From NCBI GenBank assembly GCA_025656675.1, contig JAHXHN010000003.1, forward strand, positions 310,001-374,000: 64,000 bases of DNA, in the 5' to 3' direction. Below are positions 1,479 to 25,588 of the stretch, piece by piece (positions within the stretch are counted from its first letter, which is position 1; each line of letters opens with the position of its first letter). Both the position numbers and the translations under genes were made by a program. Below the pieces are notes generated by a model, which was not told where the DNA came from, ran no database searches, and saw only the letters and a list, made by a program, of their open reading frames with translations. Origin of the DNA: Candidatus Thiodiazotropha sp. (ex Codakia rugifera) (GTDB lineage: Bacteria > Pseudomonadota > Gammaproteobacteria > Chromatiales > Chromatiaceae).

Positions 1479-1587
1479 GAGTCTCATCTCCGGTCCCCCA
1501 CACTGTCTCATCTGAAGCAGATGTTGAATATGTCTGCTCTCTTAGACCCCCTCCCCTATCTACAATGAAATTGTGTGAAATAAAATG

Positions 1588-1617
1588 GGAACCTAATAAC
1601 GCCAGGATGCCTCTTTA
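1588..1617 (+). promoter_or_regulatory. possible ECF-sigma-type promoter (GGAACC)
   Basis: GGAACC at 1588-1593 matches the GGAAC core of the -35 element used by RpoE-like ECF sigma factors. The best -10-like sequence is TCTTTA at 1612-1617, 18 bp away. If it is used, transcription would start at about the ATG at 1623, giving an almost leaderless message. Self-activation of ECF genes is common, so the position is suggestive, but the -10 element is poor. Confidence 0.3.
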
Positions 1618-1622
1618 GGGTT

Positions 1623-2315
1623 ATGAAATGTAACAAATCTACTATAAGGGAAGATCTTCAGCTGTTTGAGACACTTAGCGATAATGAAGTGATTACTCGG
1701 ATTATTGCCGGTGATCATCCCTTGTATGAACTGATAATGAGGCGCTATAACCGCCGATTATTTCGATTAGCATATGGCATATTGGGCGATGATTCTTTAG
1801 CCCAAGATGTGGTCCAAGAAACCTATGTCAGTGCTTTCCAACATCTAAATCAGTTTCGTGGGCCCGATGGATTTAGTGCCTGGCTTACGCGTATCGCTTC
1901 CAGAATCGCATTCCGCATAGCCCGTAAAGAGTCAGGACTGCACACTGTCAGTTTACCGATTGACAGCGTGGATTTAATGGGCAATGAGAGCACAGAGCCT
2001 GAACAGATCTCTATCAATGATGAAATGGTGAGGATGCTTGAAGAAGCTGTAGATAGCCTGCCACGTGATTATCGTACCGTTTTAATGCTGCGTGAATTCG
2101 AGGGCTTGAGTACCGATGAAACAGCCAAGGCACTTGATCTGAATCCAACCACAGTTAAAACAAGACTACATCGAGCTAAAGGTATTTTACGCACTAGATA
2201 TAAACATCGATTGGATGAGATTCGACCACTTGCCTATCCATTTGCAGGTACACGATGTGATGCAATCGTTTATCGGGTGTTCTTGATTCTTAAACAATCG
2301 ATCAACCTGCCATGA
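1623..2315 (+). CDS. ECF-family RNA polymerase sigma factor
   Basis: The protein has 230 residues. Sigma-70 region 2 spans about residues 35-100 (core LFRLAYGILGDDSLAQDVVQ, with the DVVQETYV motif used in core polymerase binding). Region 4 spans about 135-190 (LPRDYRTVLMLREFEGLSTD, then the helix-turn-helix NPTTVKTRLHRAK). Region 3 is missing, as in all ECF factors. The C-terminal tail includes FAGTRCDAIV (207-216), an extension recalled from one ECF subgroup. No anti-sigma factor gene is adjacent; a dihaem cytochrome gene follows after 14 bp. AGGG precedes the ATG. It probably controls an envelope or redox regulon that includes its neighbour, which is inference. Confidence 0.9.
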   Translation: MKCNKSTIREDLQLFETLSDNEVITRIIAGDHPLYELIMRRYNRRLFRLAYGILGDDSLAQDVVQETYVSAFQHLNQFRGPDGFSAWLTRIASRIAFRIARKESGLHTVSLPIDSVDLMGNESTEPEQISINDEMVRMLEEAVDSLPRDYRTVLMLREFEGLSTDETAKALDLNPTTVKTRLHRAKGILRTRYKHRLDEIRPLAYPFAGTRCDAIVYRVFLILKQSINLP

Positions 2316-2329
2316 TAGGAGAATAGGAT

Positions 2330-3652
2330 ATGGGTTTTCAGAATCTATTGATTGTTTTACAGGCCATTGCTTTAGCTTCATTAGTTACAATGCCGTCCCC
2401 GGGCTATGCATCTGACAAACATTTCCATGACACCAGGCTGTTATTCGATGTGTTTAAATCGGTATCTAAAGGACGTCATGTTTTTAGACATGACACCTTC
2501 GGTGATGAATCATTCTGGACAGAGAGACTGAGGCTGCATGAGGCAATTTCAGGCGAATCCCTGGGTGGTGTCGGACCTGGTGTCGACCCATCAACTGCAC
2601 TTGCAGTCGGCTTGAAGGTAGATGTTAAGGCCCTGCCCAAAAAACTACTGCGTGGATTACAGAGCGGTGAGGTTGATCTAACTGATCCCGCTACAACGAT
2701 TGCCTTACTTAAGCTCGATGCGGTGGTCGGTATAAAGGGTAAGGTGAGTGAATCCGGTCAGTTAGTGTCAGTGGGCATTACCTGTGCGCTTTGCCATAGT
2801 ACGGTCAATGACTCATTTGCCAGCGGTATCGGTCATCGCCTGGACGGCTGGGCTAATCGGGACCTTGACCCCGGAGTAATCATTTCTCTTGCACCCGACC
2901 TCTCGCCGTTTACTGAATTATTGAATGTCGATGAACAGACGGTTAGAACTGTTCTCATGAGTTGGGGACCAGGTAAATTCGATGCTTCCCTGCTGCTGGA
3001 TGGGAAGGCCTTTCGACCGGACGGTAGCTCAGGTGCAGTACTGATTCCACCCGCATTTGGATTAGCTGGCGTCAATCTGCATACATGGACCGGTTGGGGA
3101 TCTGTCACTCACTGGAACGCCTTTGTGGCGACACTGGAGATGGGGGGTCAGGGGACCCTTTATGATCCCCGCCTCAATGACTTTGATAAATTTCCTGTCG
3201 CTGCTGCCAATGGATTTGGTGATGTCAGACCTGAGCGCGACCTTGTCACGCCGAAACTAGGCGTATTGCAGCAATATCAACTTGCACTGAAGGCACCCAA
3301 ACCACCGCGCAGCAGTTATGATGCGAGTGCTGCCAAACGAGGGAAGCTGGTATTTGAAGATCAGGCAGACTGTGCACGCTGCCACATACCACCGCTATAT
3401 ACTGAACCAGGCTGGAATCTACATACACCGGAGGAGATCGGCATTGATGATTTCCAGGCTCGCCGGGGCCCTGAGGATAGATACAGAACAGCACCGCTTA
3501 AAGGATTATGGACTCACAGCAAGGGTGGCTACTACCATGACGGCCGGTTCCCTACCCTGATGGATGTTGTTGAGCACTATGATATCAACTTTGGCTTATC
3601 ACTAAGCCCCAATGCCAAATCAGATCTAGTCGAATACCTTAAGTCGCTATAA
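2330..3652 (+). CDS. exported dihaem c-type cytochrome, MauG/CcpA-like C-terminal part
   Basis: The protein has 440 residues, a signal peptide (cleavage near GYAS, residue 28) and two haem c sites: CALCH at residues 152-156 and CARCH near 347-351. The C-terminal part shows the cytochrome c peroxidase/MauG-family signature KGLWTHSKGGYYHDGRFPTL followed by DVVEHYD. The region between the haems (SWGPGKFDASLLLDG, HTWTGWGSVTHWNAF) is not part of classical CcpA. Taken as a periplasmic redox enzyme or electron carrier; the substrate cannot be read. AGGAGAATAGG precedes the ATG. Co-transcription with the upstream ECF sigma gene is very likely given the 14-bp gap. Confidence 0.82.
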   Translation: MGFQNLLIVLQAIALASLVTMPSPGYASDKHFHDTRLLFDVFKSVSKGRHVFRHDTFGDESFWTERLRLHEAISGESLGGVGPGVDPSTALAVGLKVDVKALPKKLLRGLQSGEVDLTDPATTIALLKLDAVVGIKGKVSESGQLVSVGITCALCHSTVNDSFASGIGHRLDGWANRDLDPGVIISLAPDLSPFTELLNVDEQTVRTVLMSWGPGKFDASLLLDGKAFRPDGSSGAVLIPPAFGLAGVNLHTWTGWGSVTHWNAFVATLEMGGQGTLYDPRLNDFDKFPVAAANGFGDVRPERDLVTPKLGVLQQYQLALKAPKPPRSSYDASAAKRGKLVFEDQADCARCHIPPLYTEPGWNLHTPEEIGIDDFQARRGPEDRYRTAPLKGLWTHSKGGYYHDGRFPTLMDVVEHYDINFGLSLSPNAKSDLVEYLKSL

Positions 3653-3705
3653 TCAACTGTGTAGCGAATGTGGATTAAGCAGAAAGTGGAGACGGGTGTA
3701 TGACT

Positions 3706-3725
3706 TAGGCCACTTTAGTGGCCTA
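3706..3725 (+). terminator. strong hairpin after the dihaem cytochrome gene
   Basis: TAGGCCAC (3706-3713) pairs perfectly with GTGGCCTA (3718-3725) over a TTTA loop. No U-tract follows at once, so it may act with Rho or as an mRNA stabiliser. Confidence 0.5.
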
Positions 3726-4108
3726 GCCTGTCTCTGCCGTTCAATTCTTTTGCCATGACCTGCCCAATAACAGATCCCAGTGTTAATAGCTGCTTGATTC
3801 ACGCTGAGGGAGACTTCTGGTTGACCCTGGGAGGTATTTCGACTTAAATCCTGCTATTTTTCGATTCGTTTCGAAAAGGTGACAATGATTCCGAGTTGCG
3901 GCAGCCGGATGATATGACTGGTTGTATATCCTGATTTGAAGTCATTTGATCTTGAAATGGCTGTTCTGAAAAACACCGGTGACGGGATGTATGAGATATA
4001 ATCCAACTCACTGGGCTATATATAATTACGAAAGTACCGGAAAACAGAATAGAACGTCTGCTAAGAAAAGTAACTCTCTATAAATTCAAAAGGTTAATCA
4101 GGAATTCA
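3726..4108. other. intergenic stretch without a recognised gene
   Basis: About 380 bp with no credible coding frame. TTTTCGA-TTCG-TTTCGAAAA forms a small hairpin around 3858-3877. The last 100 bp are AT-rich and probably carry the promoter of the SGNH hydrolase gene. Confidence 0.3.
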
Positions 4109-4831
4109 ATGAAGCATTTCTTACTCATTTGTTCACTATTTTTTATATTTTCAACGACAACATATGCACGTAACATAATAACGACAAAAGGAAATATGCC
4201 ATCAGGTACGCCTCATGTTGTCTTGATTGGAGCATCATATCTAAAAGGCTGGACCCTTGATAAAATCGATTGTTTACCTGTTGTAAATAAGGGTGTAAGT
4301 GGAGAAACATCGACCCAAGTCCTTGAGCGTTTTGAAGTAGATGCACTTACCACCCAACCAAAAGCAGTCATTATCTGGGGTCATATTAATGATTTTTCAA
4401 ATGCGCCAAAGGAAAAAGAGCAGCAAACACGAAAAACAGCTATTGAGAACTTGAAAAATATGATTGATGGCGCTAAACAGCAAGGCGTTATTCCTATTGT
4501 CGCAACTGAGATCACGCTAGGTGTCCCGCCAGGTATCAAGTCCCAGATCATGCATTTCCTTGGAAAAATAAGGGGCAAACGCAGTCATCAGCAGTACATT
4601 AGTTCTAATGTGTTAGCCGTCAATGAATGGGTTAGAAGTTATGCGAAAGATCAGGGAATCAGCGTTATTGAAATTGAAAAATTGATGACGAACGAAGAGG
4701 GAAATCGAAAAGCGGGCTATTTCAAAGAAGATTTATCCCATATAACCGAGCAAGCTTATCGGGATTTACAGGCTTATGCATTACCCTTATTGCACGATGA
4801 ACTCATCAATAAACATGGACTATGTAATTGA
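4109..4831 (+). CDS. exported SGNH/GDSL-family hydrolase
   Basis: The protein has 240 residues and an N-terminal signal peptide (cleavage near TYA, residue 20). SGNH blocks appear in order: block I VVLIGASYLKGW with the candidate nucleophile serine in GAS, block II NKGVSGETS with the oxyanion glycine, block III IIWGHINDF with the oxyanion asparagine, and block V DLSHIT with the catalytic Asp-His pair. These folds deacylate or deacetylate lipids, carbohydrates or peptidoglycan; the substrate cannot be told from sequence. It stands alone between intergenic regions. Lower GC and many AAA/AAT codons compared with neighbours hint at a separate origin, but that is weak evidence. Confidence 0.85.
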   Translation: MKHFLLICSLFFIFSTTTYARNIITTKGNMPSGTPHVVLIGASYLKGWTLDKIDCLPVVNKGVSGETSTQVLERFEVDALTTQPKAVIIWGHINDFSNAPKEKEQQTRKTAIENLKNMIDGAKQQGVIPIVATEITLGVPPGIKSQIMHFLGKIRGKRSHQQYISSNVLAVNEWVRSYAKDQGISVIEIEKLMTNEEGNRKAGYFKEDLSHITEQAYRDLQAYALPLLHDELINKHGLCN

Positions 4832-4897
4832 ATGGCAAAACACTAACTGAGGCTAGTGCGGTGTCTCATATTGTTTGACGATTATAGCGTGACACTA

Positions 4898-4911
4898 AGC
4901 GGCTAGCCGCT
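4898..4911. repeat. perfect 14-bp palindrome AGCGGCTAGCCGCT
   Basis: The palindrome lies between the convergent SGNH hydrolase and LRR genes. GTGTC at 4861-4865 and GACAC at 4891-4895 form a wider inverted pair just upstream. It probably acts as a bidirectional terminator or a binding site. Confidence 0.4.
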
Positions 4912-4966
4912 AGGCGCGTTCCGCAGGGAATGGAAGTGTACTCATTTTTTTTACTATTGACGCTGT

Positions 4967-5695
4967 TCAGAACTCAATATCACCCCCTACTCTGACAGTT
5001 GACGGTACCCGTTTTATCTGGGTACCAGCAAGATAGAGGTCCCCACCCACATAAAGATCCTTGGGGAGTTTTTTTACATCTGCCGCCCGAAGATCAAGCC
5101 AATCACCGACGGATAGACCTTTTGGGAGACGCTTGATGGATGTACCTACAAGATTCAACCAACTACCAACTTTCAAATCTTTCGGTAGGTTTTTAATAGG
5201 TGTTGCGGAGAGATCAAGTCCCCCACCTACTGAAAATCGATTGGGTAGTTCAGTCAATTCTGAGTTGCTGAGATAGAGGTTTCCACCGACCTTGATATTA
5301 TCTGGCAGTGAATCGATCAGCGTCCCAGAGAGTTCCAAATCACCTGGCACAACCAGACCTTTTGGCAACTGGACTATTCGGGTTGCCCGGAGATCAAGAC
5401 CCCCTCCGACAACGATACCTTTAGGCAGCTTACGTATGCGTGAGCTAAACAGGCTGAGATTTCCATCGACACGTAGCTTGTTGGGTAGTGCTTCGATCAA
5501 TGTCTCTGACAGGTCAAGATTTCCAGACACCCGCAGGCGTTTTGGAAGTATTGAAATATCAGTGCCAGAAAGATCGAGGTTACCATCAACAAACAGAGTT
5601 TTAGGTAGTTTTATCTCTTTAGATTTCCTCAGGTCCAGGTTGCCTTCGAATATCCTTCCGATCTGTATATCATTCACCGGCTTACTCACATCCAA
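4967..5695 (-). CDS. leucine-rich repeat protein of 20-residue units
   Basis: The 242 residues consist almost entirely of about ten consecutive 20-residue repeats of the form LPKxLxVxGxLDLSGTxIxx, with a worn last unit. No signal peptide, membrane helix or enzymatic domain is visible, so a cytoplasmic binding solenoid is inferred. The 60-bp period is seen in the DNA, but the units have diverged in sequence, which argues against recent array expansion. The start is uncertain: the first usable codon is TTG at 5695 with no good Shine-Dalgarno sequence, and an in-frame TAA lies nine codons upstream. Similar short-period LRR proteins occur in phages and host-associated bacteria. The partner is unknown. 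Confidence 0.75.
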   Translation of the reverse strand: MDVSKPVNDIQIGRIFEGNLDLRKSKEIKLPKTLFVDGNLDLSGTDISILPKRLRVSGNLDLSETLIEALPNKLRVDGNLSLFSSRIRKLPKGIVVGGGLDLRATRIVQLPKGLVVPGDLELSGTLIDSLPDNIKVGGNLYLSNSELTELPNRFSVGGGLDLSATPIKNLPKDLKVGSWLNLVGTSIKRLPKGLSVGDWLDLRAADVKKLPKDLYVGGDLYLAGTQIKRVPSTVRVGGDIEF

Positions 5696-6204
5696 ATGGT
5701 TTTCTGCTTTACGGATTTATTACCTAGGGATTCTCTAATGAATTGTACTAGCATCGATTCGTTCACAACTAGCCTGCTTAAACCATTTTGCTATCAACAG
5801 GTTAGGTTAATTGTAGGTCTCACTATGCTGGAAATGACAATCATTCAGAAGTCCTCTAATATCCATTGCATAGACAATACTATTGTTTCTTCGTGTAAAA
5901 CAGTATCTTAAACATGTATTGACCTGAATCAGCAAGTTCAATGTGAGCAATTTACCCCAATGTACACACTGTAATGTCAGTTGCTTTGCAATCTGGCACA
6001 CTCTGCTAGCATTGATATATCCAAGCATAGTATTCCTTTGGATAGCTTAGGGTAATTATTTTCAGATAGTGCGGGTATCACTAAAAACATCTATTGGATT
6101 TCTAGCCGCCATAAGTAAAAAACATGCATTGTAATGGACCCAACGGATTTCGCTAAATCTATCTTTTTTCTATCGTATTTTACAACCTGCTTTAGATTAA
6201 TGGG
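5696..6204. other. AT-rich intergenic stretch, no gene seen
   Basis: About 510 bp between divergent genes. A 73-codon minus-strand frame at 5807-6028 has no ribosome binding site and protein-unlike composition, and was not accepted. Nothing else is recognised. Confidence 0.4.
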
Positions 6205-6234
6205 TTCAGAAAATGGGTATTAAAGGTCTATAAT
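6205..6234 (+). promoter_or_regulatory. sigma-70 promoter for the 6260 operon
   Basis: TTCAGA (6205-6210) and a perfect TATAAT (6229-6234) are 18 bp apart. Transcription would start near 6241, leaving about 19 bases before the TTG at 6260, which supports that TTG as the start. Confidence 0.6.
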
Positions 6235-6259
6235 TTACCCTCTATATAGGGAGAGGAGA

Positions 6260-6955
6260 TTGAAAATTACTATTTTTCTGGTCGTTGTCGCAGCTATTCT
6301 TATTGGTGCCTGGTACTTTGAAAACCAACGAAGGGAGGGACTGGATAAAGTTGCTAATAGCATTGGTTTTATCCTCGAACCAGGTCAACAACAATTAGGC
6401 GAATCTCTGGATTCCGTAAATTTCTATCTTTTCAGTCAGGGTCAACCGCTGGTACAGAACCTGATGCGTGGAGATCACAATGGTGATCACATTGAGGTAT
6501 TTAACTACGCTTATACAGCCTCTGAAGGGTTTGAAGGCTCACGTGAACTACCAAATTTAAGTGATGAGGGCAGAATCACTACCTATATGCAAACCGTTGC
6601 CTGTTTTCTGGATATTAAGCCCATGCCGCATTTCGACTTGAGCCCGAATGATGGTTCCAAACGGACCCTGAACAGTGAATTCAGATCAGTCGGTTTTGAT
6701 GATGCTCATGGATTCACTCAACACTATCGTTTAGCCGCACGTGAAGAAGCGTCGGTTCGGTTGCTTTTCAATGACCGACTGTTGGCTCACTTCGCGCAGA
6801 ATCCGGGGTGGGTGGTTGAGAGTCGTGGCAGACAAGTCATATTTTATCACAAGGACGAACGACTAAAACCGGAACACATTGCTGAATTTATTGAACAAGC
6901 ACAGGATCATATTGAAAGATTCCGTTTATCACTAAACAAGAGAGAAGCGTACTGA
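6260..6955 (+). CDS. membrane-anchored protein of unknown function
   Basis: The protein has 231 residues with one N-terminal membrane helix (about residues 3-19, ITIFLVVVAAILIGAWYF) followed by a hydrophilic domain, so it is probably anchored with its bulk in the periplasm. The start is a TTG behind GGGAGAGGAGA, with a TATAAT promoter just upstream. I do not recognise the family. The stop codon overlaps the apparent CTG start of the next gene (CTGA, 6952-6955), which implies translational coupling to the NTP-transporter-like gene. Confidence 0.7.
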   Translation: MKITIFLVVVAAILIGAWYFENQRREGLDKVANSIGFILEPGQQQLGESLDSVNFYLFSQGQPLVQNLMRGDHNGDHIEVFNYAYTASEGFEGSRELPNLSDEGRITTYMQTVACFLDIKPMPHFDLSPNDGSKRTLNSEFRSVGFDDAHGFTQHYRLAAREEASVRLLFNDRLLAHFAQNPGWVVESRGRQVIFYHKDERLKPEHIAEFIEQAQDHIERFRLSLNKREAY

Positions 6956-8259
6956 CAGCTGCTTCTGAAATACAGCTTGTAATACAACGCCTGGTCAATA
7001 TCCGACAAGGTGAGGGGCGAGCAATTGTCTGGTCCTTTATCTATTTTTTTTCACTACTCAGCAGTTACTACATACTTCGTCCCATTCGAGATGAAATGGG
7101 TATCACTGCAGGGATTGAAAATCTGCATTGGCTGTTTACCGGCACGTTTATCGCCATGTTGATGGTTGTCCCTTTATTCGGATACCTTACGTCACGTTTA
7201 CAGCGCAAGCAGTTTCTTCCCTATGTCTACTATTTCTTTATTTTCAATATTCTGCTTTTCTATCTGTTTTTTAAGTCTGAATATTCGATAACCATTACTG
7301 CCCGAGCTTTTTTTATCTGGATTAGCGTATTCAATCTCTTTGTTGTTTCAGTATTCTGGAGCTTCATGACAGACCTGTATAGCAATGAACAGGCCAAACG
7401 CCTGTTTGGTTTCATCGCAGCGGGTGGGACAATAGGTGCAATTGCCGGTCCTCTTTTGACAACCATTCTGGTTCAGCAGCTTGGAACAAGCCCTATGCTG
7501 TTGATATCTGCCGGGCTGCTTGGATTGTCAGTTGTCTGCATTCGACAATTGTCAACCTGGCAGTATGCACAGCATGATCAGGAAGCTAAAACGTATCAGC
7601 ATGAAAAACCACTGGGCGGAGGACTACTTGATGGTATTCGCCTGGTAGCCTGCTCTCCCTATCTGTTAGGGATATCCCTGTTAATGCTGTTATTTACCCT
7701 GCTCTCTACATTTCTCTATTTCCAACAAGCACAGATTGTTAAAGAGGCATTTACTGATTCTGAAACACGTACCGCTGTCTTTGCCGCCATAGATTTTACA
7801 GTCAATACCCTGACCTTAATTATCCAGACACTCATTACCGCACGTCTGGTAAAAGGGTTAGGCCTTGGCTTTACCCTAGCACTTATACCCTTGTGGCTCT
7901 GTCTGGGTTTCCTCTTACTGGGACTCTTTCCCATACTACCCGTCTTGGTTACCGTTCAGGTAATGCGGCGTGCTGGAAATTACGCCATTATGCGTCCTGC
8001 ACGAGAGATGCTATATGTAGTGCTTAGTAGGGAAGAAAAATACAAGGCGAAGAACTTCATCGATACGGTGGTCTATCGTGGCGGTGATGCAGTGAGTTCC
8101 TGGATCTATGCGGGTCTTAAAGGAATCGGTTTTAGTCTGTCAACAATTGCCTGGATCGCTGTACCCATATCCCTGATATGGGCCTGGATTGCTTACAGTC
8201 TTGGTAAAAAACAGGAAGCCATAGAATGCCAGCTAACAGCTCAAAATAAAGGAGAATGA
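6952..8259 (+). CDS. NTP/NTP exchange (Npt/ADP-ATP translocase-like) transporter, non-standard start
   Basis: The frame is open from 6916, and coding similarity begins well before the first ATG (7096). The codons upstream of it read AIVWSFIYFFSLLSSYYILR and then PIRDEMG, which is the first membrane helix and conserved motif of the Npt/ATP-ADP-translocase-like family. No ATG, GTG or TTG occurs in that stretch. The best candidate is CTG at 6952, overlapping the preceding stop as CTGA after a purine-rich AAGAGAGAAG, giving 435 residues. About eleven membrane helices follow, with the family motif FGFIAAGGTIGAIAGP. Substrate (nucleotide or other) is inferred from family only. The Tat-exported reductase follows after 1 bp. 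Confidence 0.75.
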   Translation: MTAASEIQLVIQRLVNIRQGEGRAIVWSFIYFFSLLSSYYILRPIRDEMGITAGIENLHWLFTGTFIAMLMVVPLFGYLTSRLQRKQFLPYVYYFFIFNILLFYLFFKSEYSITITARAFFIWISVFNLFVVSVFWSFMTDLYSNEQAKRLFGFIAAGGTIGAIAGPLLTTILVQQLGTSPMLLISAGLLGLSVVCIRQLSTWQYAQHDQEAKTYQHEKPLGGGLLDGIRLVACSPYLLGISLLMLLFTLLSTFLYFQQAQIVKEAFTDSETRTAVFAAIDFTVNTLTLIIQTLITARLVKGLGLGFTLALIPLWLCLGFLLLGLFPILPVLVTVQVMRRAGNYAIMRPAREMLYVVLSREEKYKAKNFIDTVVYRGGDAVSSWIYAGLKGIGFSLSTIAWIAVPISLIWAWIAYSLGKKQEAIECQLTAQNKGE

Positions 8260-8260
8260 T

Positions 8261-9196
8261 ATGAGTAGAGAGGAATACCAAATAGGACGAAGGAAGCTAT
8301 TGAAACTAATTGCTGGTTTGGCAGGCAGTTACTGGATCGCTCCAACGTTTACTCATGCAGCAGACAGAACTCCCATCAGCAAGGCCATACCCGCTACGAA
8401 TGAGATGATTCCTGTCATCGGCCTGGGCACCTCCCGGACATTTGACTCAGCAGGTGATCTCGACGCGATCAATAATCTCGGAAAAGTACTGGAAACTTTT
8501 TTTCAACAAGGTGGGGCGCTGATCGATTCATCTCCCATGTACGGCTCATCTGAACAAGTAGTCGGCACCCTACTGAAAACCGTGAAAAAACCACAATCCT
8601 TGTTTGCCGCCACTAAGGTCTGGACCGACGGTAAAGCGCATGGAGTGGCGCAAATGGCACTCTCAAAAAAACTATGGGGCATTCAACATTTTGATCTGAT
8701 GCAGATACATAACCTGAGAGACTGGCGTACACACTTAGAGACACTGAAGGTGATGAAAGCAGAGGGGGATATCCGCTATATCGGCATCACGACCTCACAT
8801 GGGCGTTCTCATGATGAGTTGTTTGAAATACTCTCCAGTCACCCATTCGATTTTGTTCAATTGAGTTATAACATTGGCAACCGCGAAGTGGAAAAGAGAC
8901 TATTACCCTTAGCAATTGAGCGAGGTATCGCTGTGATAGCCAATCGTCCATATGCCCGTGGCAGCCTCTTCAGACAGACCAAAGGCAAAGCGATGCCCGA
9001 TTGGGTGGATGAATTTGGCTGCAATAGCTGGGGCCAGTTTTTCCTGAAATATGTTGTATCCCACCCGGCAATAACCTGTGCTATCCCTGCCACTTCCAAG
9101 GTACATCACATGATCGACAATATGGAGGCCGGATTTGGACAACTGCCTGATAAGAGGATACGGAGAAAAATGGAAGCCACATTTGAAGGGTTATAA
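8261..9196 (+). CDS. Tat-exported aldo/keto reductase
   Basis: The protein has 311 residues. It opens with a twin-arginine signal (GRRKLLKLIAG at about residues 9-19, cleavage near THA, residue 33), so it is exported folded. The aldo-keto reductase tetrad is visible: Asp and Tyr in IDSSPMYGSSEQ, Lys in AATKVW, His in MQIHNL. Late motifs PYARGSLFR and PATSKVHH match the nucleotide-binding end. A periplasmic NADPH-type enzyme is unusual because the cofactor is not normally free there; this subgroup of Tat-exported members is known from many genomes. AAAGGAG precedes the ATG, one base after the transporter stop, so it belongs to the same operon. Confidence 0.85.
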   Translation: MSREEYQIGRRKLLKLIAGLAGSYWIAPTFTHAADRTPISKAIPATNEMIPVIGLGTSRTFDSAGDLDAINNLGKVLETFFQQGGALIDSSPMYGSSEQVVGTLLKTVKKPQSLFAATKVWTDGKAHGVAQMALSKKLWGIQHFDLMQIHNLRDWRTHLETLKVMKAEGDIRYIGITTSHGRSHDELFEILSSHPFDFVQLSYNIGNREVEKRLLPLAIERGIAVIANRPYARGSLFRQTKGKAMPDWVDEFGCNSWGQFFLKYVVSHPAITCAIPATSKVHHMIDNMEAGFGQLPDKRIRRKMEATFEGL

Positions 9197-18492: not shown

Positions 18493-19824
18493 TTATTCAA
18501 TTGGGATGATGAGTCTAGCACAAGTTCCTCCACCATCATGCTCCAGGAGTTTTACTGTCCAGCCGTTTGCGTCGGCCAGCTGGCGAACAATGGCTAATCC
18601 AAGACCACTTCCTCCGGTCACGCTGCTGCGAGATTTTTCCAGTCTGAAAAACGGTTGGAATACAGCTTCGCGTTGTTCTGGAGGAATGCCTGGTCCATGA
18701 TCCACCACCTGAATTGTGAGAAAATCTTTATCACAGTTGCATTCAACGCTTACCGGCTTTCCTTCACCATAGCGTATTGCATTTTCCAGCAGGTTAGAAA
18801 CGATGCGCTGGAGTGCCAAAGGATTCAGCATAAAGCTGCAGGATTTATCAGTAGTCCATTCTATGGTCTGGTTTCCATGTCTTACAGCTACAATTATATG
18901 GTCCAGGGCCCCGGCAATCTGTGTCGGCTCCTTTTCCTGCTTATCCAGTTCCAGGCTGATCTGAAGTGCTTGTCCGATAAGTCGGTTAACAGCATTGAGA
19001 TCTCGGTAAACACCATTCATGAGTTGAGTATCTCCGCCATCGTTTGGCAGCATAGCAAGGGCCAACTGGATTTGTGTGAGAGGAGTACGCAGGTCGTGTG
19101 AAATTCCCGCTAGCAGTGTCGTTCGGTTGGTGAGTAGTTCTCTCATCTGGATGTTCATGCGATTAAATTCCCTGGCAAGAACGATCAATTCTTCCGGTCC
19201 CTCCTCCCTAACAGGGTCCGGCCACTGTCCTTTTCCTATTAGCTGCGCTGCCTGGTAAAGACGTTCTATGGTAACTGTCAGGCGTCGGGTGAGTAGGGTC
19301 GCAGTGAAAAAGGTCAGACAAAACCCGGTGATCAGGACGACAAAAAAAGCTACCGATGGTTTGACCCCTATGCGCGAGCGTGAAAATCCAAAGCGTAAAA
19401 CTGTATTTGATAGCGGGACATCAGCCCAGTACCACTTCTCGTCTTTTTGATCCCGACTGGTCTTAATGTGTATCTTGTTTCCCAACTGTTTCTGCAACGA
19501 TGCCTCAAGGAAAAACAGATACGGCAGCAGGCTGGTAGAATCCGGTAGCGATGCCTCTGCGCTGGTTAACCGGAGATTGTGTTTATGCCACATCTGTTCA
19601 ACAAATACACCACGCTCGCCAGTGGGTAAACTTTCCCACCTTTCAGAGGCATGAGAGATTATGCTGGCCAGGTCATCAGTCGCGCGTTGTCCAAGTGGAA
19701 CCACCATATAGTAGGCTATGGTTGATAGCATAATTACCAGAAATCCAATCGATACGATGCCGATGGTAAAAAGAATTTTCCAGAAGTAGCTTCGGAATTG
19801 AAAAAAAGTCTTAATAATATTCAT
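18493..19824 (-). CDS. EnvZ-like sensor histidine kinase
   Basis: The protein has 443 residues from the ATG at 19824, chosen because it overlaps the response-regulator stop as TAATG; a longer in-frame start adds twelve unlikely residues. Order: membrane helix 1 (about 12-40), a periplasmic sensor of about 110 residues, membrane helix 2 (near 155-180), HAMP, then HisKA with the phospho-accepting His in GISHDLRTPL. The ATPase domain has the N box NLLENAIRYG, DHGPGI and GGSGLGLAIV. All catalytic motifs are intact. With the OmpR-type regulator it probably controls the divergent cytochrome and barrel genes; the signal is unknown. Confidence 0.93.
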   Translation of the reverse strand: MNIIKTFFQFRSYFWKILFTIGIVSIGFLVIMLSTIAYYMVVPLGQRATDDLASIISHASERWESLPTGERGVFVEQMWHKHNLRLTSAEASLPDSTSLLPYLFFLEASLQKQLGNKIHIKTSRDQKDEKWYWADVPLSNTVLRFGFSRSRIGVKPSVAFFVVLITGFCLTFFTATLLTRRLTVTIERLYQAAQLIGKGQWPDPVREEGPEELIVLAREFNRMNIQMRELLTNRTTLLAGISHDLRTPLTQIQLALAMLPNDGGDTQLMNGVYRDLNAVNRLIGQALQISLELDKQEKEPTQIAGALDHIIVAVRHGNQTIEWTTDKSCSFMLNPLALQRIVSNLLENAIRYGEGKPVSVECNCDKDFLTIQVVDHGPGIPPEQREAVFQPFFRLEKSRSSVTGGSGLGLAIVRQLADANGWTVKLLEHDGGGTCARLIIPIE

Positions 19825-20528
19825 TACTCTTCTGATGAGAAGATATAACCTGCACCCCATATTGTACGCAAGTAAACAGGCTCCGAAGGGTTGGGTTCAA
19901 TTTTTCGACGCAAACGTCCCACGCAGACATCGATACTGCGATCTAGGGGTGACCGATCATAACCTTTAGTCATTTCCAGTAATCTATCTCGATTCAACAC
20001 ATGATTCTGGTGCTTTAGAAAAATGCGTAGAAGTGTGAATTCACCCGTGGTAAGTGAGATCTCCTGATCACTTCTGAAGAGCTTATGCCTTTGCACGTCA
20101 AGCCTAAATGGGCCAAACATAAATTTATCACCAGTGGAGGGGGTTTGCTCGGTTTGATTACACCTGCGTAACACTGAACGTATTCTGGCCAGCAGTTCCC
20201 TTGGATTAAAAGGTTTTGTTAGATAGTCATCTGCACCCATTTCAAGGCCAACAATTTTATCCAGTTCTTCGCCACGTGCAGAGAGAATTATGATTGGAAG
20301 GTTTTTCTGGTTGCGTAATCGGCGGCCAATCGAAAGGCCATCTTCACCTGGAAGCATAAGGTCGAGGATGACCAGATCAACATCGTGGCAGGAAAGATAC
20401 CGGTCCGTAGCATCAGCATCTTCAACCGCTTCAACGTCATATCCTTCTTTAGAAAGATAGCTTTTCAACAAATTCCTGAGCTCAGGTTCATCATCGACTA
20501 CCAACAGTCGCCGTTTCAGCGTATTCAA
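19824..20528 (-). CDS. OmpR-family response regulator
   Basis: The receiver domain has the acidic pair VVDDEP, the phosphorylation Asp in LVILDLMLPGEDG, and the Lys in YLTKPFNP. The C-terminal winged helix ends RLRRKIEPNP... TIWGAGYIF, typical of OmpR. The start is placed at TTG 20528 because GGGGA lies six bases before it and the protein then begins MNTLKRRLLVVDDEP; a longer TTG start at 20573 has no ribosome binding site. It overlaps the kinase gene by one base and is divergent from the cytochrome gene at 20674. Confidence 0.92.
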   Translation of the reverse strand: MNTLKRRLLVVDDEPELRNLLKSYLSKEGYDVEAVEDADATDRYLSCHDVDLVILDLMLPGEDGLSIGRRLRNQKNLPIIILSARGEELDKIVGLEMGADDYLTKPFNPRELLARIRSVLRRCNQTEQTPSTGDKFMFGPFRLDVQRHKLFRSDQEISLTTGEFTLLRIFLKHQNHVLNRDRLLEMTKGYDRSPLDRSIDVCVGRLRRKIEPNPSEPVYLRTIWGAGYIFSSEE

Positions 20529-20673
20529 TTGATATCCCCACACTTTTGTTGCAATGACGCAATTCTGAAACAAATTCGTTACATCTTGTTACTGCTACGC
20601 CATCATCCAGATAAATATTGTGTTTATTGTATGCGCTGTAGAAAACGACGCCAACCTACTGAGGACAAGCCCC

Positions 20674-21312
20674 ATGAAACACCAGCGCAATAAAGCTAAA
20701 AAATGCTTCGACCGTTTTCCAGGAATTCAGAAACTACGATATTCATCTATCGCAGCTGCGATGCTGATTGGCAGTGCCTTTCTGACATCCAATGTGAGCG
20801 CGGCTGATCCAGGTATGGAGGAATTAAAAAAAGTTTTGCAGGGACAGATTGAACTTATGACGCCAGAATTGCAGGAGAAGGTAAAGGGGCTGTCGATGGA
20901 TACCAAAATGTCCTTAATGGCGATACTGGCTATGCACAACCGTTACAGCAAAAGCGTAACCATGCGCCAGGTGATGACAGAAGTTTTGTCTGATTTCCAA
21001 AGCATACTCGCGGGAATCATGACAGACAATCCAGAGCAGACTGCGGATAGCGCACGACGCCTTGCAAATCATCGTATCCCCGTTGGCGGGCTTCTTCCCT
21101 ATTTGGGAATGGAAAATATCAGTGATGAGCGTTTGGCTGTTCTCGACGGGTTTAATACCAGCGTAGAGGGGAATGCTCTGAAACTTGCTACCGCAGCCGA
21201 GGCTGGCGACATGGCAACGGCGGCATCACTCGTAGGACCGATCAGCTCAGGTTGCGTGGCATGTCATGGTGTTTTTCGTACTCAGCCTGGCGTTTCGGAT
21301 TTGCTGCGTTAA
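20674..21312 (+). CDS. exported monohaem cytochrome, class II (cytochrome c'-like) layout
   Basis: The protein has 212 residues from the ATG at 20674 behind GAGGA. A long signal peptide ends near VSA (residue 44). The rest is helical, with one haem motif CVACH close to the C-terminus, the arrangement of class II cytochromes, in which a four-helix bundle carries haem at its end. Cytochromes c' bind NO or CO; whether this one keeps an open haem site cannot be told. It is divergent from the two-component genes and 75 bp before the outer-membrane protein. Confidence 0.75.
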   Translation: MKHQRNKAKKCFDRFPGIQKLRYSSIAAAMLIGSAFLTSNVSAADPGMEELKKVLQGQIELMTPELQEKVKGLSMDTKMSLMAILAMHNRYSKSVTMRQVMTEVLSDFQSILAGIMTDNPEQTADSARRLANHRIPVGGLLPYLGMENISDERLAVLDGFNTSVEGNALKLATAAEAGDMATAASLVGPISSGCVACHGVFRTQPGVSDLLR

Positions 21313-21387
21313 TCTGATTTATCTGGCCTCAATCACGATAACTATAAAGACCTGATTGAGAATAGCCTGTCATCTAGGAGGAATGTT

Positions 21388-22542
21388 ATGAAATGCAGGG
21401 TAACTTTGCTTTCCGCCAGTCTCGCGCTAGCTTGTATCATACCAACATATGCTCTTGCGGTTGGTGATGATCAAGATAGTAGCTCCACGCTGGAGCAGCG
21501 CCGCGCACTGTCAAATCGGATTAAACAGTTGCGGGCATTGAGAAAAAAACTACCCATTCCGGTACCCTCTGGGCTTTTTGGTATTTATGCTTTCCCTGAA
21601 AAAGGTCAGGGAGTTGCCGGTATAAACTACCAGCACCATGAGTTCGATGGGTTGATACAGGGCAGCAAATCTATTTCGGCTGAAACAGTAGTGACTTCGG
21701 CACCCAATCGCTTTTTTGGCAATCCCATGCAGCCGCCAACTCTGCGGGTCGTGCCGAAAAGTGCCCGAGCCGATGTGATATTCCCCTTTGCAAATTTTGC
21801 CTTCAACGACCATTTCGCACTGGTCGCTCTGGCACCCCTGATCCGTAAGGAGACTGTATTGGAGACCTTCTCAGGTGGCGGAGGTATAAACAGTCTGGGA
21901 ACCAATACGGTTACCACAAAAGGATTGGGTGATATTAAATTCGGCACCATATTTAAAGCCTACAATAGCGATGATTATGGCCACAATATGTTATTTGACG
22001 CAGTATTGAGTGCTCCGACCGGAAGCATTACGGAAGAGGATTATAATCTGACGCCGATGAACACCAAGGTGAAAACCCGGTTAGCCTACGGAATGCAATT
22101 GGGTTCCGGTACCTGGGATGCTGTTGTCGGAGTAGTTTACTGGGGCAAGCAGAAACAATGGGGTTGGGGAGCACAATATCTGGCCACAATTCCCCTTGAG
22201 AGTGAGAACAGCGAGGGTTGGAGATTCGGAGATAAACATGAGGGTACCGCGTGGGTATCCTATGAGTGGCAACCGGATTTAGTCACTTCCGTTCGATTGC
22301 GTGGTGAAACTCAGGACGAGATACATGGAATTGATTCGAAGATCTATGGGCCTGGTTTGGGTGCAAATCCAGATAATTACGGTGGAGAAAGGGCTGAGAT
22401 CGGTATCGGAATTAACTGGATGCCAGCGCTGGCAAATAATCTCAGTCTGGAACTGTTATTGCCAATTCACCAGGATCGCAATGGCGTTCAGGCGGAACAC
22501 GAATTCAGCCTGGCATTAAGTTGGCGTACAGGATTTTTCTAG
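21388..22542 (+). CDS. outer-membrane beta-barrel (MetA-phenol/transporter-like) protein
   Basis: The protein has 384 residues with a signal peptide (cleavage near ALA, residue 24). The body is a run of alternating strands with aromatic girdle residues and ends in Phe-Phe, the outer-membrane insertion signal. The fold resembles the family often annotated as the MetA pathway phenol-degradation porin or simply 'transporter'. AGGAGG lies before the ATG. The region after the signal peptide (about 30-55) is a charged helix rich in Arg and Lys, which may plug or extend from the barrel. Substrate unknown. It lies between the cytochrome gene and the DUF2892 gene in one probable operon. Confidence 0.75.
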   Translation: MKCRVTLLSASLALACIIPTYALAVGDDQDSSSTLEQRRALSNRIKQLRALRKKLPIPVPSGLFGIYAFPEKGQGVAGINYQHHEFDGLIQGSKSISAETVVTSAPNRFFGNPMQPPTLRVVPKSARADVIFPFANFAFNDHFALVALAPLIRKETVLETFSGGGGINSLGTNTVTTKGLGDIKFGTIFKAYNSDDYGHNMLFDAVLSAPTGSITEEDYNLTPMNTKVKTRLAYGMQLGSGTWDAVVGVVYWGKQKQWGWGAQYLATIPLESENSEGWRFGDKHEGTAWVSYEWQPDLVTSVRLRGETQDEIHGIDSKIYGPGLGANPDNYGGERAEIGIGINWMPALANNLSLELLLPIHQDRNGVQAEHEFSLALSWRTGFF

Positions 22543-22569
22543 TCGATTTCTTTTTTCTGGAGGATAAAC

Positions 22570-22758
22570 ATGAAGCACAATGTTGGTGGAATCGATCGTA
22601 CCCTGCGCATCATCATCGGTCTTGTGGTAATCGGTGGGGGCGTCTACGCCCAGAATTGGTGGGGTGCCATTGGTCTCATCCCCCTGCTCACCGGTGTAAT
22701 AGGCTGGTGTCCGGCTTACCTGCCCTTTGGCCTGAGCAGCTGCAAGATCAATTCCTGA
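22570..22758 (+). CDS. second DUF2892 small membrane protein
   Basis: The protein has 62 residues: KHNVGGIDRTLRIIIGLVV, a second hydrophobic segment, and the turn GWCPAYLPFGLSSCK. It is a paralogue of the protein at 17460 and keeps the Cys-Pro turn, with a second cysteine eight residues later. It lies 27 bp after the barrel gene with GGAGG before its ATG, so it is probably co-expressed. The partner is unknown. Confidence 0.88.
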   Translation: MKHNVGGIDRTLRIIIGLVVIGGGVYAQNWWGAIGLIPLLTGVIGWCPAYLPFGLSSCKINS

Positions 22759-22914
22759 TGGACCCAGGAAGAGCGGCCTGAAATCGTTTCGGTAGGCGAT
22801 GTTAGGCCAAGCCCCCATTTATTCAGTTTCATTTCAGAAACCCTCCCTACAATCAAATTCACAGAGACAATTTTGCTTTGATTTATTCGACCAAGGTAGT
22901 GAGCGTTTGGAATC

Positions 22915-24192
22915 ATGACAACAAGCACGTTAGCAATGATCATCTTTGCTGCAATCCTGATACAAACCACCATCCTTGTACTGATCGGTTTACATCATCG
23001 TAAAAAACTTCAGCAAAGCCAGCAGAATCAAGTCGCAAAGGTGGTACAGCGTTCATCCTCTCAAGAGGATGTATTATCGAGTGATCAATCATTCAACTCG
23101 GTATTTTTATGGAGCGGATACCGGGAGTTCCGTGTCTTACGGCGGAAGATGGAAGATAAAAACAATTCGATCTGTTCTTTTTATCTAACACCAACCGATG
23201 GTAAATCCTTACCCTCATTTGAACCAGGGCAGTTTCTCACCTTCAAGCTGCCGATCGACAACCCTTCATCAGGCCAACCGAAAACAGTGACACGCTGTTA
23301 TTCCTTATCGGATAGACCAAGGCCTGACTACTACCGTATATCGATAAAGCGAGTCCCTGCCCCAGTTGGTCGGCCGGATCTGCCAGCAGGCATCGCTTCA
23401 AATTTCTTTCATGAACAAGTACATGAAGGCAGTAAACTACTAGCCAAGGCCCCTTCTGGGCATTTCCATCTCATGAATGATGAGAATTTACCCATCGTGC
23501 TTGTTGCTGGTGGGATCGGCATTACTCCGATGTTGAGCATCCTAAACACCCTCATAGAGGGTGGTTTGCGTCGGGAAGTATGGTTCTATTTCGGGGTGCG
23601 CAATGGTGATGAAGATATGATGAAAAACCATCTCCGTATACTTGCCGAGACCCACTCAAATTTCCATTTGCATGTCTGTTACAGTGCACCAAATGAAGAT
23701 GATGAGGAGGAGATCGACTACCACCATAGTGAACGGATCAGCATCCCATTATTACGCTCCACGCTGAGCCTGAAGCGTTACCAATTTTATGTCTGCGGTC
23801 CCCAAGCATTGATGGAGTCTCTTGTGCCAGGATTGGAGGCTTGGGGTGTAGATACCAATGATATCTATTACGAATCATTCGGCCCAGCCACACTCATTAA
23901 ACAGGATCGCTCTGAACAGAAGCGACTTGAAAGTGAACCCATGACGATTACCTTTAGCAGCTCCGATCAAAGCTTTCCCTGGGATGCAACAGCCGATTCC
24001 CTATTGGAATTTGCAGAAACCAATGATATTAACGTGCCCTCAGGCTGCCGGGCTGGTAGCTGTGGTTCCTGTCAAACATCTTTGATAAAAGGCGAGGTCA
24101 AATACAATCAGCAGCCGGATGCTGATACAGAACCAGGACACTGTCTGCTATGCATTGCAAGACCTAAGAGCGATCTCGTATTGGAGGCTTAG
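22915..24192 (+). CDS. membrane-anchored FAD / 2Fe-2S NAD(P)H reductase
   Basis: The protein has 425 residues. One N-terminal membrane helix (about 5-26) is followed by HHRKK, which by the positive-inside rule puts the rest in the cytoplasm. Then comes a ferredoxin-reductase module: FAD motif TRCYSLSDRP, nucleotide motif VAGGIGITPML, and YVCGPQALMES. The C-terminal plant-type ferredoxin has CRAGSCGSC with the fourth ligand in HCLLC. This layout (reductase then ferredoxin) is that of Hcr and VanB-type reductases. With the next two genes it likely passes NAD(P)H electrons to membrane b haems. The stop overlaps the following gene. Confidence 0.88.
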   Translation: MTTSTLAMIIFAAILIQTTILVLIGLHHRKKLQQSQQNQVAKVVQRSSSQEDVLSSDQSFNSVFLWSGYREFRVLRRKMEDKNNSICSFYLTPTDGKSLPSFEPGQFLTFKLPIDNPSSGQPKTVTRCYSLSDRPRPDYYRISIKRVPAPVGRPDLPAGIASNFFHEQVHEGSKLLAKAPSGHFHLMNDENLPIVLVAGGIGITPMLSILNTLIEGGLRREVWFYFGVRNGDEDMMKNHLRILAETHSNFHLHVCYSAPNEDDEEEIDYHHSERISIPLLRSTLSLKRYQFYVCGPQALMESLVPGLEAWGVDTNDIYYESFGPATLIKQDRSEQKRLESEPMTITFSSSDQSFPWDATADSLLEFAETNDINVPSGCRAGSCGSCQTSLIKGEVKYNQQPDADTEPGHCLLCIARPKSDLVLEA

Positions 24193-24194
24193 TG

Positions 24195-24773
24195 ATGGAA
24201 CACTCACTGGTACGCAAAGAAGTGATCCCCTTTTTACTGCTATTCGGTGCACTGATTGTGGCAACCGCCATCATCGATATCCTTCTCCATCAGTTTGAAC
24301 TGGTCTGGATTGGAAGATACCTGGGAATACCAGGCACAATTCTGATTTTGCTCTCGTTTTTCTATTCCATGCGAAAACGTAAGATGATCAGTTTCGGCAA
24401 ACCAAAGTCACTCCTTACACTGCATGAAACACTCACATTACTGGGTGCCCTGATGATCCTTGTCCATGCCGGCATCCATATCTATGTGATTCTGCCCTGG
24501 CTTGCGCTGACCGCCATGTTAGTCAACATCATCAGTGGTATGACGGGTAAGTACTTGCTGGATCGATCCCGCCGTCATATCAATACAAAGAAAGCACTTT
24601 ATTTGCAACAGGGCCTGTCTGATGAGGCCATCGAAAAACAGCTCTTCTGGGATGCTACGGCCTTCGACATGATGAAGCAGTGGCGAGTGGTCCATTTGCC
24701 TATCACACTGGCTTTCGCAGTACTGAGCATCACCCATATTCTAAGCATTTTCCTGTTCTGGCAATGGCGATGA
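24195..24773 (+). CDS. four-helix membrane protein, probable dihaem b-type cytochrome
   Basis: The protein has 192 residues from the ATG at 24195 (GGAGG seven bases before); a GTG three bases earlier is also possible. Four to five membrane helices are predicted. Two helices each hold a pair of histidines exactly 14 residues apart: LHETLTLLGALMILVH and VVHLPITLAFAVLSITH. That is the spacing used for two stacked bis-histidine b haems in ferric-reductase and b561-like proteins. I do not know a named family for it. It overlaps both neighbours (TAGTG upstream, ATGA downstream), so the three proteins should be made together. Haem binding is inferred from the spacing alone. Confidence 0.7.
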   Translation: MEHSLVRKEVIPFLLLFGALIVATAIIDILLHQFELVWIGRYLGIPGTILILLSFFYSMRKRKMISFGKPKSLLTLHETLTLLGALMILVHAGIHIYVILPWLALTAMLVNIISGMTGKYLLDRSRRHINTKKALYLQQGLSDEAIEKQLFWDATAFDMMKQWRVVHLPITLAFAVLSITHILSIFLFWQWR

Positions 24774-25588
24774 AATACAACACAATAACGCTGATCGTTG
24801 CCATCAATCTGACCCTACTGGTCCTTCTGGCAATACTCATTCCTCAATTTATGATCAGCCCGGGGAAACCAATTGATGCACATGCTGATCTTGCTACGGA
24901 TTGCTTTGCCTGCCATACCCCGTTTATTGGCAGTACAGCAGACAAATGCATCGCCTGCCATAAGGTTGAGGAAATCGGTATTAAAACCACTCAAGGATTA
25001 CCCATCGCTGAAGAGAAGAAGAATGTTGCCTTTCACCAACAGTTGATCGAAGAGGATTGTGTCTCCTGCCATAGTGACCACAAAGGCGTACAAGCCTTTC
25101 GCCCAATTGGTCAGTTCTCTCATCACTTACTTGAACCTGACTTACAGCAGCAGTGTGATGGCTGCCATAGCAATCCAGGTGATGCACTACACCTTAAGAT
25201 TGAGGGCAATTGCGCAGAATGCCATGACCAGGAAGCATGGATACCGGCCACTTTTAACCATGCAGACTATTTCCGCTTCGACAGGCATCATGATACTGAT
25301 TGTGTTACTTGTCATGTTAACAGTGACTATAGCAACTACACCTGCTACGGCTGTCATGAGCACTCACGTTCGAAGATACGTGAAGAACATGTTGAGGAAG
25401 GCATCTATGATTATGAAGTCTGTGTTGAGTGTCACCGAAGTGGCGACGAGGAAGAGGCTGAGCGAATCTGGCGCTCTCAGCGTTTCAAATCCTACCAGGG
25501 AAAAGGCGCAGGTTCATTCGAGAGTAGTTATCAGAGAGGAAAAGAGAGGGGGACATATTGGGATGACGATCGCGATGACGACGACTAA
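24770..25588 (+). CDS. anchored octahaem c-type cytochrome
   Basis: The protein has 272 residues from the ATG at 24770, chosen for its ATGA overlap with the previous stop. The N-terminal hydrophobic segment (about 6-28) lacks a clear cleavage site and is read as an anchor with the rest periplasmic. Eight CxxCH motifs follow: CFACH, CIACH, CVSCH, CDGCH, CAECH, CVTCH, CYGCH and CVECH, plus many free histidines for the distal ligands, in the style of class III multihaem cytochromes. The last 40 residues are charged and end in DDDRDDDD. It probably accepts electrons from the membrane b haems and hands them to a periplasmic or outer-membrane acceptor. Confidence 0.88.
   Translation: MKYNTITLIVAINLTLLVLLAILIPQFMISPGKPIDAHADLATDCFACHTPFIGSTADKCIACHKVEEIGIKTTQGLPIAEEKKNVAFHQQLIEEDCVSCHSDHKGVQAFRPIGQFSHHLLEPDLQQQCDGCHSNPGDALHLKIEGNCAECHDQEAWIPATFNHADYFRFDRHHDTDCVTCHVNSDYSNYTCYGCHEHSRSKIREEHVEEGIYDYEVCVECHRSGDEEEAERIWRSQRFKSYQGKGAGSFESSYQRGKERGTYWDDDRDDDD

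Follow-up and report, generated by a model that had tools for sequence, protein, structure and literature searches.

A putative transmembrane NAD(P)H/multihaem cytochrome c conduit with a conserved two-gene core and an interchangeable reductase in a sulfur-oxidising symbiont

Thiodiazotropha is a genus of sulfur-oxidising symbionts. The stretch of DNA analysed here (64,000 nucleotides, hereafter the window) corresponds to positions 310001-374000 of contig C3 in the 4.65 Mb genome of Candidatus Thiodiazotropha sp. (ex Codakia rugifera), and this work concerns three of its genes, located at 22915-25588 and hereafter called the triad. According to the open reading frame (ORF) calls, all three lie on the plus strand and adjoin or overlap one another (Table 1). 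The original prediction held that these overlapping genes encode, in that order, a reductase, a membrane protein with two histidine pairs and an anchored octahaem cytochrome c, and ORFs, profiles and motifs all agree with it. The ORF of gene 2 counts 193 amino acids (aa) from a GTG at 24192, the next codon being an ATG (24195). Since M2 is invariant in 13/13 rows of alignment A1, this ATG is the likelier start. The start ATG of gene 3 overlaps the TGA of gene 2.

Table 1. Genes of the triad (positions in the window; FAD, flavin adenine dinucleotide; NAD(P), nicotinamide adenine dinucleotide (phosphate)).
Feature	Position	Strand	Basis
Gene 1: reductase (FAD/NAD(P)/[2Fe-2S]) of 425 aa with an N-terminal anchor	22915..24192	+	Pfam NAD_binding_1 and Fer2, alignments, motifs, hydrophobic stretch 6-24
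Gene 2: membrane protein of 192-193 aa, putatively a di-haem cytochrome b, with H78/H92 and H168/H182	24192..24773	+	AlphaFold2 helices, conserved histidines
Gene 3: octahaem cytochrome c of 272 aa, anchored in the membrane and ending in an acidic tail	24770..25588	+	eight CXXCH, c3/CIII/C7 profiles, nine further invariant histidines

Gene 1 matches the Pfam profiles NAD_binding_1 (1.6e-16) and Fer2 (4.8e-12), the FAD-binding profile itself being absent from its Pfam matches. Among relatives of solved structure, residues 64-325 align best with flavohaemoglobin reductase domains (5e-44) and residues 81-423 with phthalate dioxygenase reductase (2e-27). The motifs RCYS, GGIGITP, CGP and Cx4Cx2C...C are present, and FAD, NAD and 2Fe-2S modules are carried by a single chain, as expected from a 2Fe-2S reductase of the FNR type. 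Residues 6-24 are hydrophobic and precede the sequence HHRKK, an arrangement that by the positive-inside rule would place the enzyme on the cytoplasmic face of the membrane. A second hydrophobic stretch (192-210) is located inside the NAD-binding domain.

Gene 2 is more singular, as no Pfam or NCBIfam family matches it at E<=1, Ferric_reduct (PF01794) and Ni_hydr_CYTB (PF01292) included. Four of its eight histidines (4, 33, 78, 92, 96, 129, 168 and 182) form the pairs H78-x13-H92 and H168-x13-H182. Because two such pairs also arise in 512 of 20,000 shuffles of the protein, the pattern is weak by itself and its weight lies in conservation. Chance was rejected as an explanation since the pairs are invariant across clades (see below). 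An AlphaFold2 model was built from alignment A4, whose 51 rows comprise the window and 50 loci out of the best 80 of a contig scan, L096 being excluded for a stop in its coordinates. The 80 loci are the best of 313 relatives and are therefore biased to close relatives. The model (mean predicted local distance difference test score, pLDDT, 77.3; predicted template modelling score, pTM, 0.70) has five long helices (2-34, 45-65, 71-95, 100-139 and 159-189), with H78 and H92 in helix 3 and H168 and H182 in helix 5. Gene 2 thus displays a trait of the NOX superfamily, namely four histidines in two modelled membrane helices that are predicted to hold two b haems. Loops rich in K/R after helices 2 and 4 suggest that H78 and H168 are on the cytoplasmic side. 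This topology, which combines charge with model helices, would be consistent with a wire crossing the membrane.

The product of gene 3 contains exactly eight CXXCH motifs, accounting for all of its 16 cysteines, and a hydrophobic stretch at residues 6-24. Three profiles are above cut-off (Cytochrom_c3_2, Cytochrom_CIII and Cytochrome_C7). In alignment A6, which joins gene 3 of the window to 46 of its 77 relatives, nine histidines outside the CXXCH motifs are invariant in 47/47 sequences, enough for bis-His ligation of all eight haems. Such ligation throughout would fit a carrier. An octahaem enzyme of the HAO/OTR kind was considered and rejected, since only c3/c7 profiles match and no octahaem enzyme appears among solved structures at E<=1. 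Besides, the C terminus (window 25550-25588) is acidic, with a DD end in 66 and a DDD end in 54 of the 77 relatives. Among the ORFs called in the same loci, DDD ends are found in 47 of 69 gene 3 proteins versus 4 of 1,018 others, and the stretch preceding the acidic tail is unconserved. The haem number is variable, gene 3 carrying ten haems in eight of the 80 best loci and 12 in one.

The triad is not peculiar to this genome. Gene 2 is detected at E<1e-80 in 12/56 related genomes, the contig scan gave the 313 relatives mentioned above, and a relative of the same genus (G001) carries the three genes on one contig. Of the 80 best loci, 71 keep genes 1, 2 and 3 in that order on a single strand, and 79 have gene 3 after gene 2. 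Six histidines characteristic of the clade (33, 78, 92, 96, 168 and 182) are present in 79, the remaining locus being cut. Gene 1 is missing from eight loci, three of which start less than 300 bases from gene 2 while five have room upstream. The 80 loci show no fusion, each ORF matching one of the three proteins at most, and the viral contigs scanned contain no relative. Among the supporting alignments, A2 excludes L024, whose gene 1 is cut at a contig end, and A3 excludes L032.

More distant relatives extend the module to at least three clades, which makes it a recurrent one and wider than the original prediction knew. A plasmid clade was reached via gene 3; in Salinimonas, Alteromonas, Rhizorhabdus, Methylophaga, Variovorax and Spirosoma (Bacteroidota) it encodes successively a reductase of 560-691 aa, a cytochrome b of 242-253 aa and a c3-like cytochrome bearing seven CXXCH. 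A Methylocystis plasmid also carries the remote module, its third gene being absent from the PLSDB table, and the clade as a whole spans Alpha-, Beta- and Gammaproteobacteria in addition to Spirosoma. Compared with the proteins of the window, the reductases are 25-30% identical, the c cytochromes 25-32% and the cytochrome b of Salinimonas 25%. A tblastn search of the plasmids with gene 2 of the window itself gave no match, and the plasmid-type cytochrome b occurs in 52 of 72,556 plasmid records. Several plasmids have genes for copper or other metals close to the module. On one of them, pAlt83_a of Alteromonas macleodii (L240, 13207-16690), the remote triad is immediately upstream of genes for [NiFe] hydrogenase subunits and their maturation, in a stretch that also contains copper-resistance genes. 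The gene 2 and gene 3 counterparts there are probably the 'Orf1' and 'Cyt' of the HynSL operon, as mapped by gene order onto PMC3102683.

A third type was observed in the window's own genome (L034, C3:484000-501000). At 1585-9082 on the minus strand, a relative of gene 2 (303 aa) accompanies two multihaem proteins, one with 21 haems and one of 1,654 aa with 67 CXXCH. A divergent Fer4/FAD pyridine-nucleotide oxidoreductase lies next to them, as does an ankyrin/Sel1 protein. Related sets bear 62 (L036) and 43 haems (L037). The gene 2 profile matches the L034 cytochrome b with a probability of 98.2% (residues 40-151) and the plasmid cytochrome b with one of 94.8% (residues 44-135). The histidine pair of helix 5 is outside these local matches, and its alignment across clades relies on MAFFT and the fixed spacing. 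Sixteen cytochromes b of the three clades were aligned in this way (5 of the 51 A4 rows; four paralogues, L038 being dropped for its wrong frame; and 7 of the 52 plasmid records). H78, H92, H168 and H182 are the only histidines invariant in 16/16, H33 being present in 13 and H96 in 8. This invariance is the strongest evidence that gene 2 encodes a di-haem b protein, as predicted.

From the observed sequence content, gene packing and conservation of histidines and haem motifs, we infer a haem pairing, complex formation, a topology, the use of NADH or NADPH and a direction of flow. Gene 1 would take hydride from NAD(P)H onto FAD at the cytoplasmic face and pass single electrons onward via its [2Fe-2S] cluster. 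In gene 2, two stacked b haems would be held between helices 3 and 5, H78/H168 on the inner and H92/H182 on the outer side, and would move the electrons across the inner membrane. Gene 3, anchored alongside, would then receive them on eight bis-His c haems and hand them to a periplasmic acceptor. Inward running would be possible given a strong enough donor outside, as hinted by the relative beside the [NiFe] hydrogenase. We give a probability of about 0.65 to this reading of the triad as a transmembrane NAD(P)H/multihaem-c electron conduit with a gene 2-gene 3 core and an interchangeable reductase.

Several observations weigh against it. Hydropathy alone yields seven overlapping windows in gene 2 rather than five clean helices, a Foldseek search with its model returned nothing at E<=0.001 (NOX5 came second at E 1.1, and cytochrome b6 was among the weak matches), and the gene 3 model is poor (pLDDT 55.9). 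In the five genomes that lack gene 1 despite room upstream, the reductases present are all distant (best E 5.5e-13 to 6.7e-24). Moreover, in a phylum sample of 398 genomes, where the gene 2 profile is found at E<=1e-10 in 27, reductases similar to gene 1 occur at E<=1e-50 in 78, versus 24 genomes with gene 2 at E<1e-60, own genome included; the reductase family is therefore far wider than the triad. Outside the own genome, the latter threshold leaves 23 genomes with 24 loci, and only 13 of these loci have any gene 1 match upstream, some of them partial. Of the 11 genomes concerned by its absence, five have a relative elsewhere at E<=1e-15 and six have none, four of the six being at least 93% complete.

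Since all 24 loci keep genes 2 and 3 (the six clade histidines included) and only 13 have a reductase upstream, the constant core is the gene 2-gene 3 pair, and the reductase, judged from these distributions, is a frequent yet dispensable and interchangeable cytoplasmic partner. The three-part wire originally put forward thus stands for its parts and for its gene order, found again in the 71 close loci. It also stands for its four membrane histidines, which hold in 79/80 close loci (one cut), in 24/24 of the phylum sample and in 16/16 sequences across clades. It does not stand for the reductase as a fixed part. A tree of 51 reductases (32 linked to the pair and 19 unlinked, some of the latter near contig ends; L117 excluded as short) shows two placements for these five relatives. 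Those of L209, L210 and L234 sit in a 12-row branch of unlinked sequences (support 98/93), and those of L211 and L212 share a long branch with one more unlinked row, amid linked sequences. In L209 (357-1394), the unlinked gene 1 relative comes after an ORF with three CXXCH motifs, so the family may have further haem partners.

In an alternative reading, genes 2 and 3 would form a CbcL-like quinol:multihaem cytochrome oxidoreductase, gene 1 being an extra NAD(P)H input or serving another reaction. In favour of this proposal, the pair occurs without gene 1 in 11 of the 24 sampled loci (although one has just 161 bases upstream) and in the five roomy loci among the 80, and in CbcL itself a di-haem b domain linked to quinone is joined to a bis-His domain of nine haems, as described in PMC9129911. 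However, the reductase-first order is repeated in the remote plasmid clade, and in length gene 2 falls short of CbcL's b domain with its six helices. We regard quinol linkage as unlikely, while the most serious of the alternatives.

Reversed flow is a poorer candidate. A periplasmic donor, H2 in the hydrogenase-linked relatives and some other compound in the sulfur oxidisers, would reduce NAD(P)+ through the c and b haems, as the hydrogenase genes just downstream of the Alteromonas macleodii module might suggest. Nevertheless, this link is restricted to a single lineage, the neighbours on other plasmids being metal-resistance or unrelated genes, and Orf1 and Cyt, which are probably the same pair, are dispensable for maximal HynSL activity in Escherichia coli according to PMC3102683.

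Equally improbable is that the triad feeds the SHP system, gene 3 reducing diheme cytochrome c (DHC) and SHP, a periplasmic haem protein reported to oxidise nitric oxide (NO). Oxygen and NO are both ligands of SHP, which PMC2909971 cites as having nitric oxide dioxygenase activity, and gene 1 is nearest to flavohaemoglobin reductases. Eleven of the 80 loci have SHP 6 kb or less from the triad, nine of them within 1.7 kb, several of these loci being close relatives. SHP (Pfam DUF1924), DHC and a cytochrome b561 were identified in L083 and L101, the other SHP loci by clustering. As the 80 loci total 1.13 Mb, well under one such SHP would be expected. Conversely, 69 of the 80 have none within the available stretch, many being short contigs, and the operon has a cytochrome b of its own. 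SHP is present in 28 of the 56 related genomes, in 10 of the 12 with gene 2 and in 18 of the 44 without it, so that 18 SHP-bearing relatives do without gene 2 and two gene 2 carriers without SHP. The association is suggestive only, and SHP as a fixed partner was rejected, given its presence near the triad in 11 loci only and its location about 67 kb away in the window's genome.

The genes preceding the triad were likewise rejected as part of the unit. At 18493-22542, the window contains a divergent two-component system, a protein with one CXXCH and a sub-threshold cytochrome c' match, and a beta-barrel-like protein. These genes are present in L022 and missing from L023, gene 2 being 96% identical in both. 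A short plus-strand frame at about 22600-22758, distinct from the Pfam-searched frame at 22521-22778, may encode a small membrane protein of the DUF2892 kind, by its appearance.

If the conduit reading holds, the route would begin at NAD(P)H and bypass the quinone pool, providing another driving force for extracellular electron transfer or for the detoxification of NO or metals. If reversed, it would deliver outside electrons straight to NAD(P)+. On a larger scale, we tentatively propose, with somewhat less confidence than an even chance, that the triad represents an unnamed and widespread superfamily whose members conduct electrons across the membrane between NAD(P)H and multihaem c cytochromes, and whose basis is a family of di-haem membrane cytochromes independent of NOX, b561 and bc1. 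It would comprise at least three clades, namely an octahaem one in sulfur oxidisers, a heptahaem one on plasmids that reaches Bacteroidota, and one feeding giant proteins of 43-67 haems. The NAD(P)H pool could then exchange electrons with the periplasm or the cell exterior while skipping quinones. The four invariant histidines and the small plasmid-borne copies make the system directly testable.

A named complex of this composition was not found in the open-licence literature, most subscription journals being outside it. The original prediction that no named complex is known therefore holds for a characterised complex of full composition in these papers, but not entirely for its parts, the Alteromonas pair being probably published as Orf1/Cyt. 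That pair differs from the window pair, Orf1 being 252 aa long and Cyt having 7 haems with a hydrogenase link, compared with 193 aa and 8 haems. A second comparison is offered by the SHP-DHC-cytochrome b operon, a frequent neighbour of the triad that also combines a membrane cytochrome b with c cytochromes. Unlike gene 2, the cytochrome b of this operon matches Ni_hydr_CYTB, and the words octaheme, flavin and reductase are absent from the accessible text of PMC2909971.

Profile comparisons did not attach gene 2 to any family tried. With hhalign, the alignment to four MsrQ-type proteins covers 24 columns (E 0.044, probability 1.2%) with a shallow profile. That to eight ORFs of the own genome picked at PF01292 matches, not every frame of which was verified, reaches a probability of 0.3%. 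DUF4405 and cytochrome b sets, of one to eight sequences each with script-picked frames not all verified, gave no match. Given the missing Ferric_reduct and Ni_hydr_CYTB profiles and the shallow hhalign comparisons, the triad is provisionally placed in neither the NOX nor the CbcL group.

Split NADPH oxidases, MsrQ-Fre and bacterial NOX pair a cytoplasmic flavoprotein of the FNR type with a four-His di-haem membrane protein, and bacterial SpNOX is able to reduce cytochrome c directly (both from PMC5676040). Unlike NOX and MsrQ, gene 2 lacks a Ferric_reduct match and has only the short MsrQ alignment given above, the reductase of the triad has a [2Fe-2S] domain, and a multihaem cytochrome appears to be the acceptor. 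In Geobacter, CbcL, an inner-membrane route to periplasmic multihaem cytochrome that begins at quinol, combines in a single polypeptide a di-haem b membrane part of six helices with a periplasmic bis-His multihaem c part of nine haems (PMC9129911). By comparison, the triad consists of separate chains with five predicted helices and eight c haems, and usually has a flavoprotein gene alongside. On the simplest reading, the conduit would work like a split NADPH oxidase with a multihaem acceptor, or like CbcL with NAD(P)H replacing quinol.

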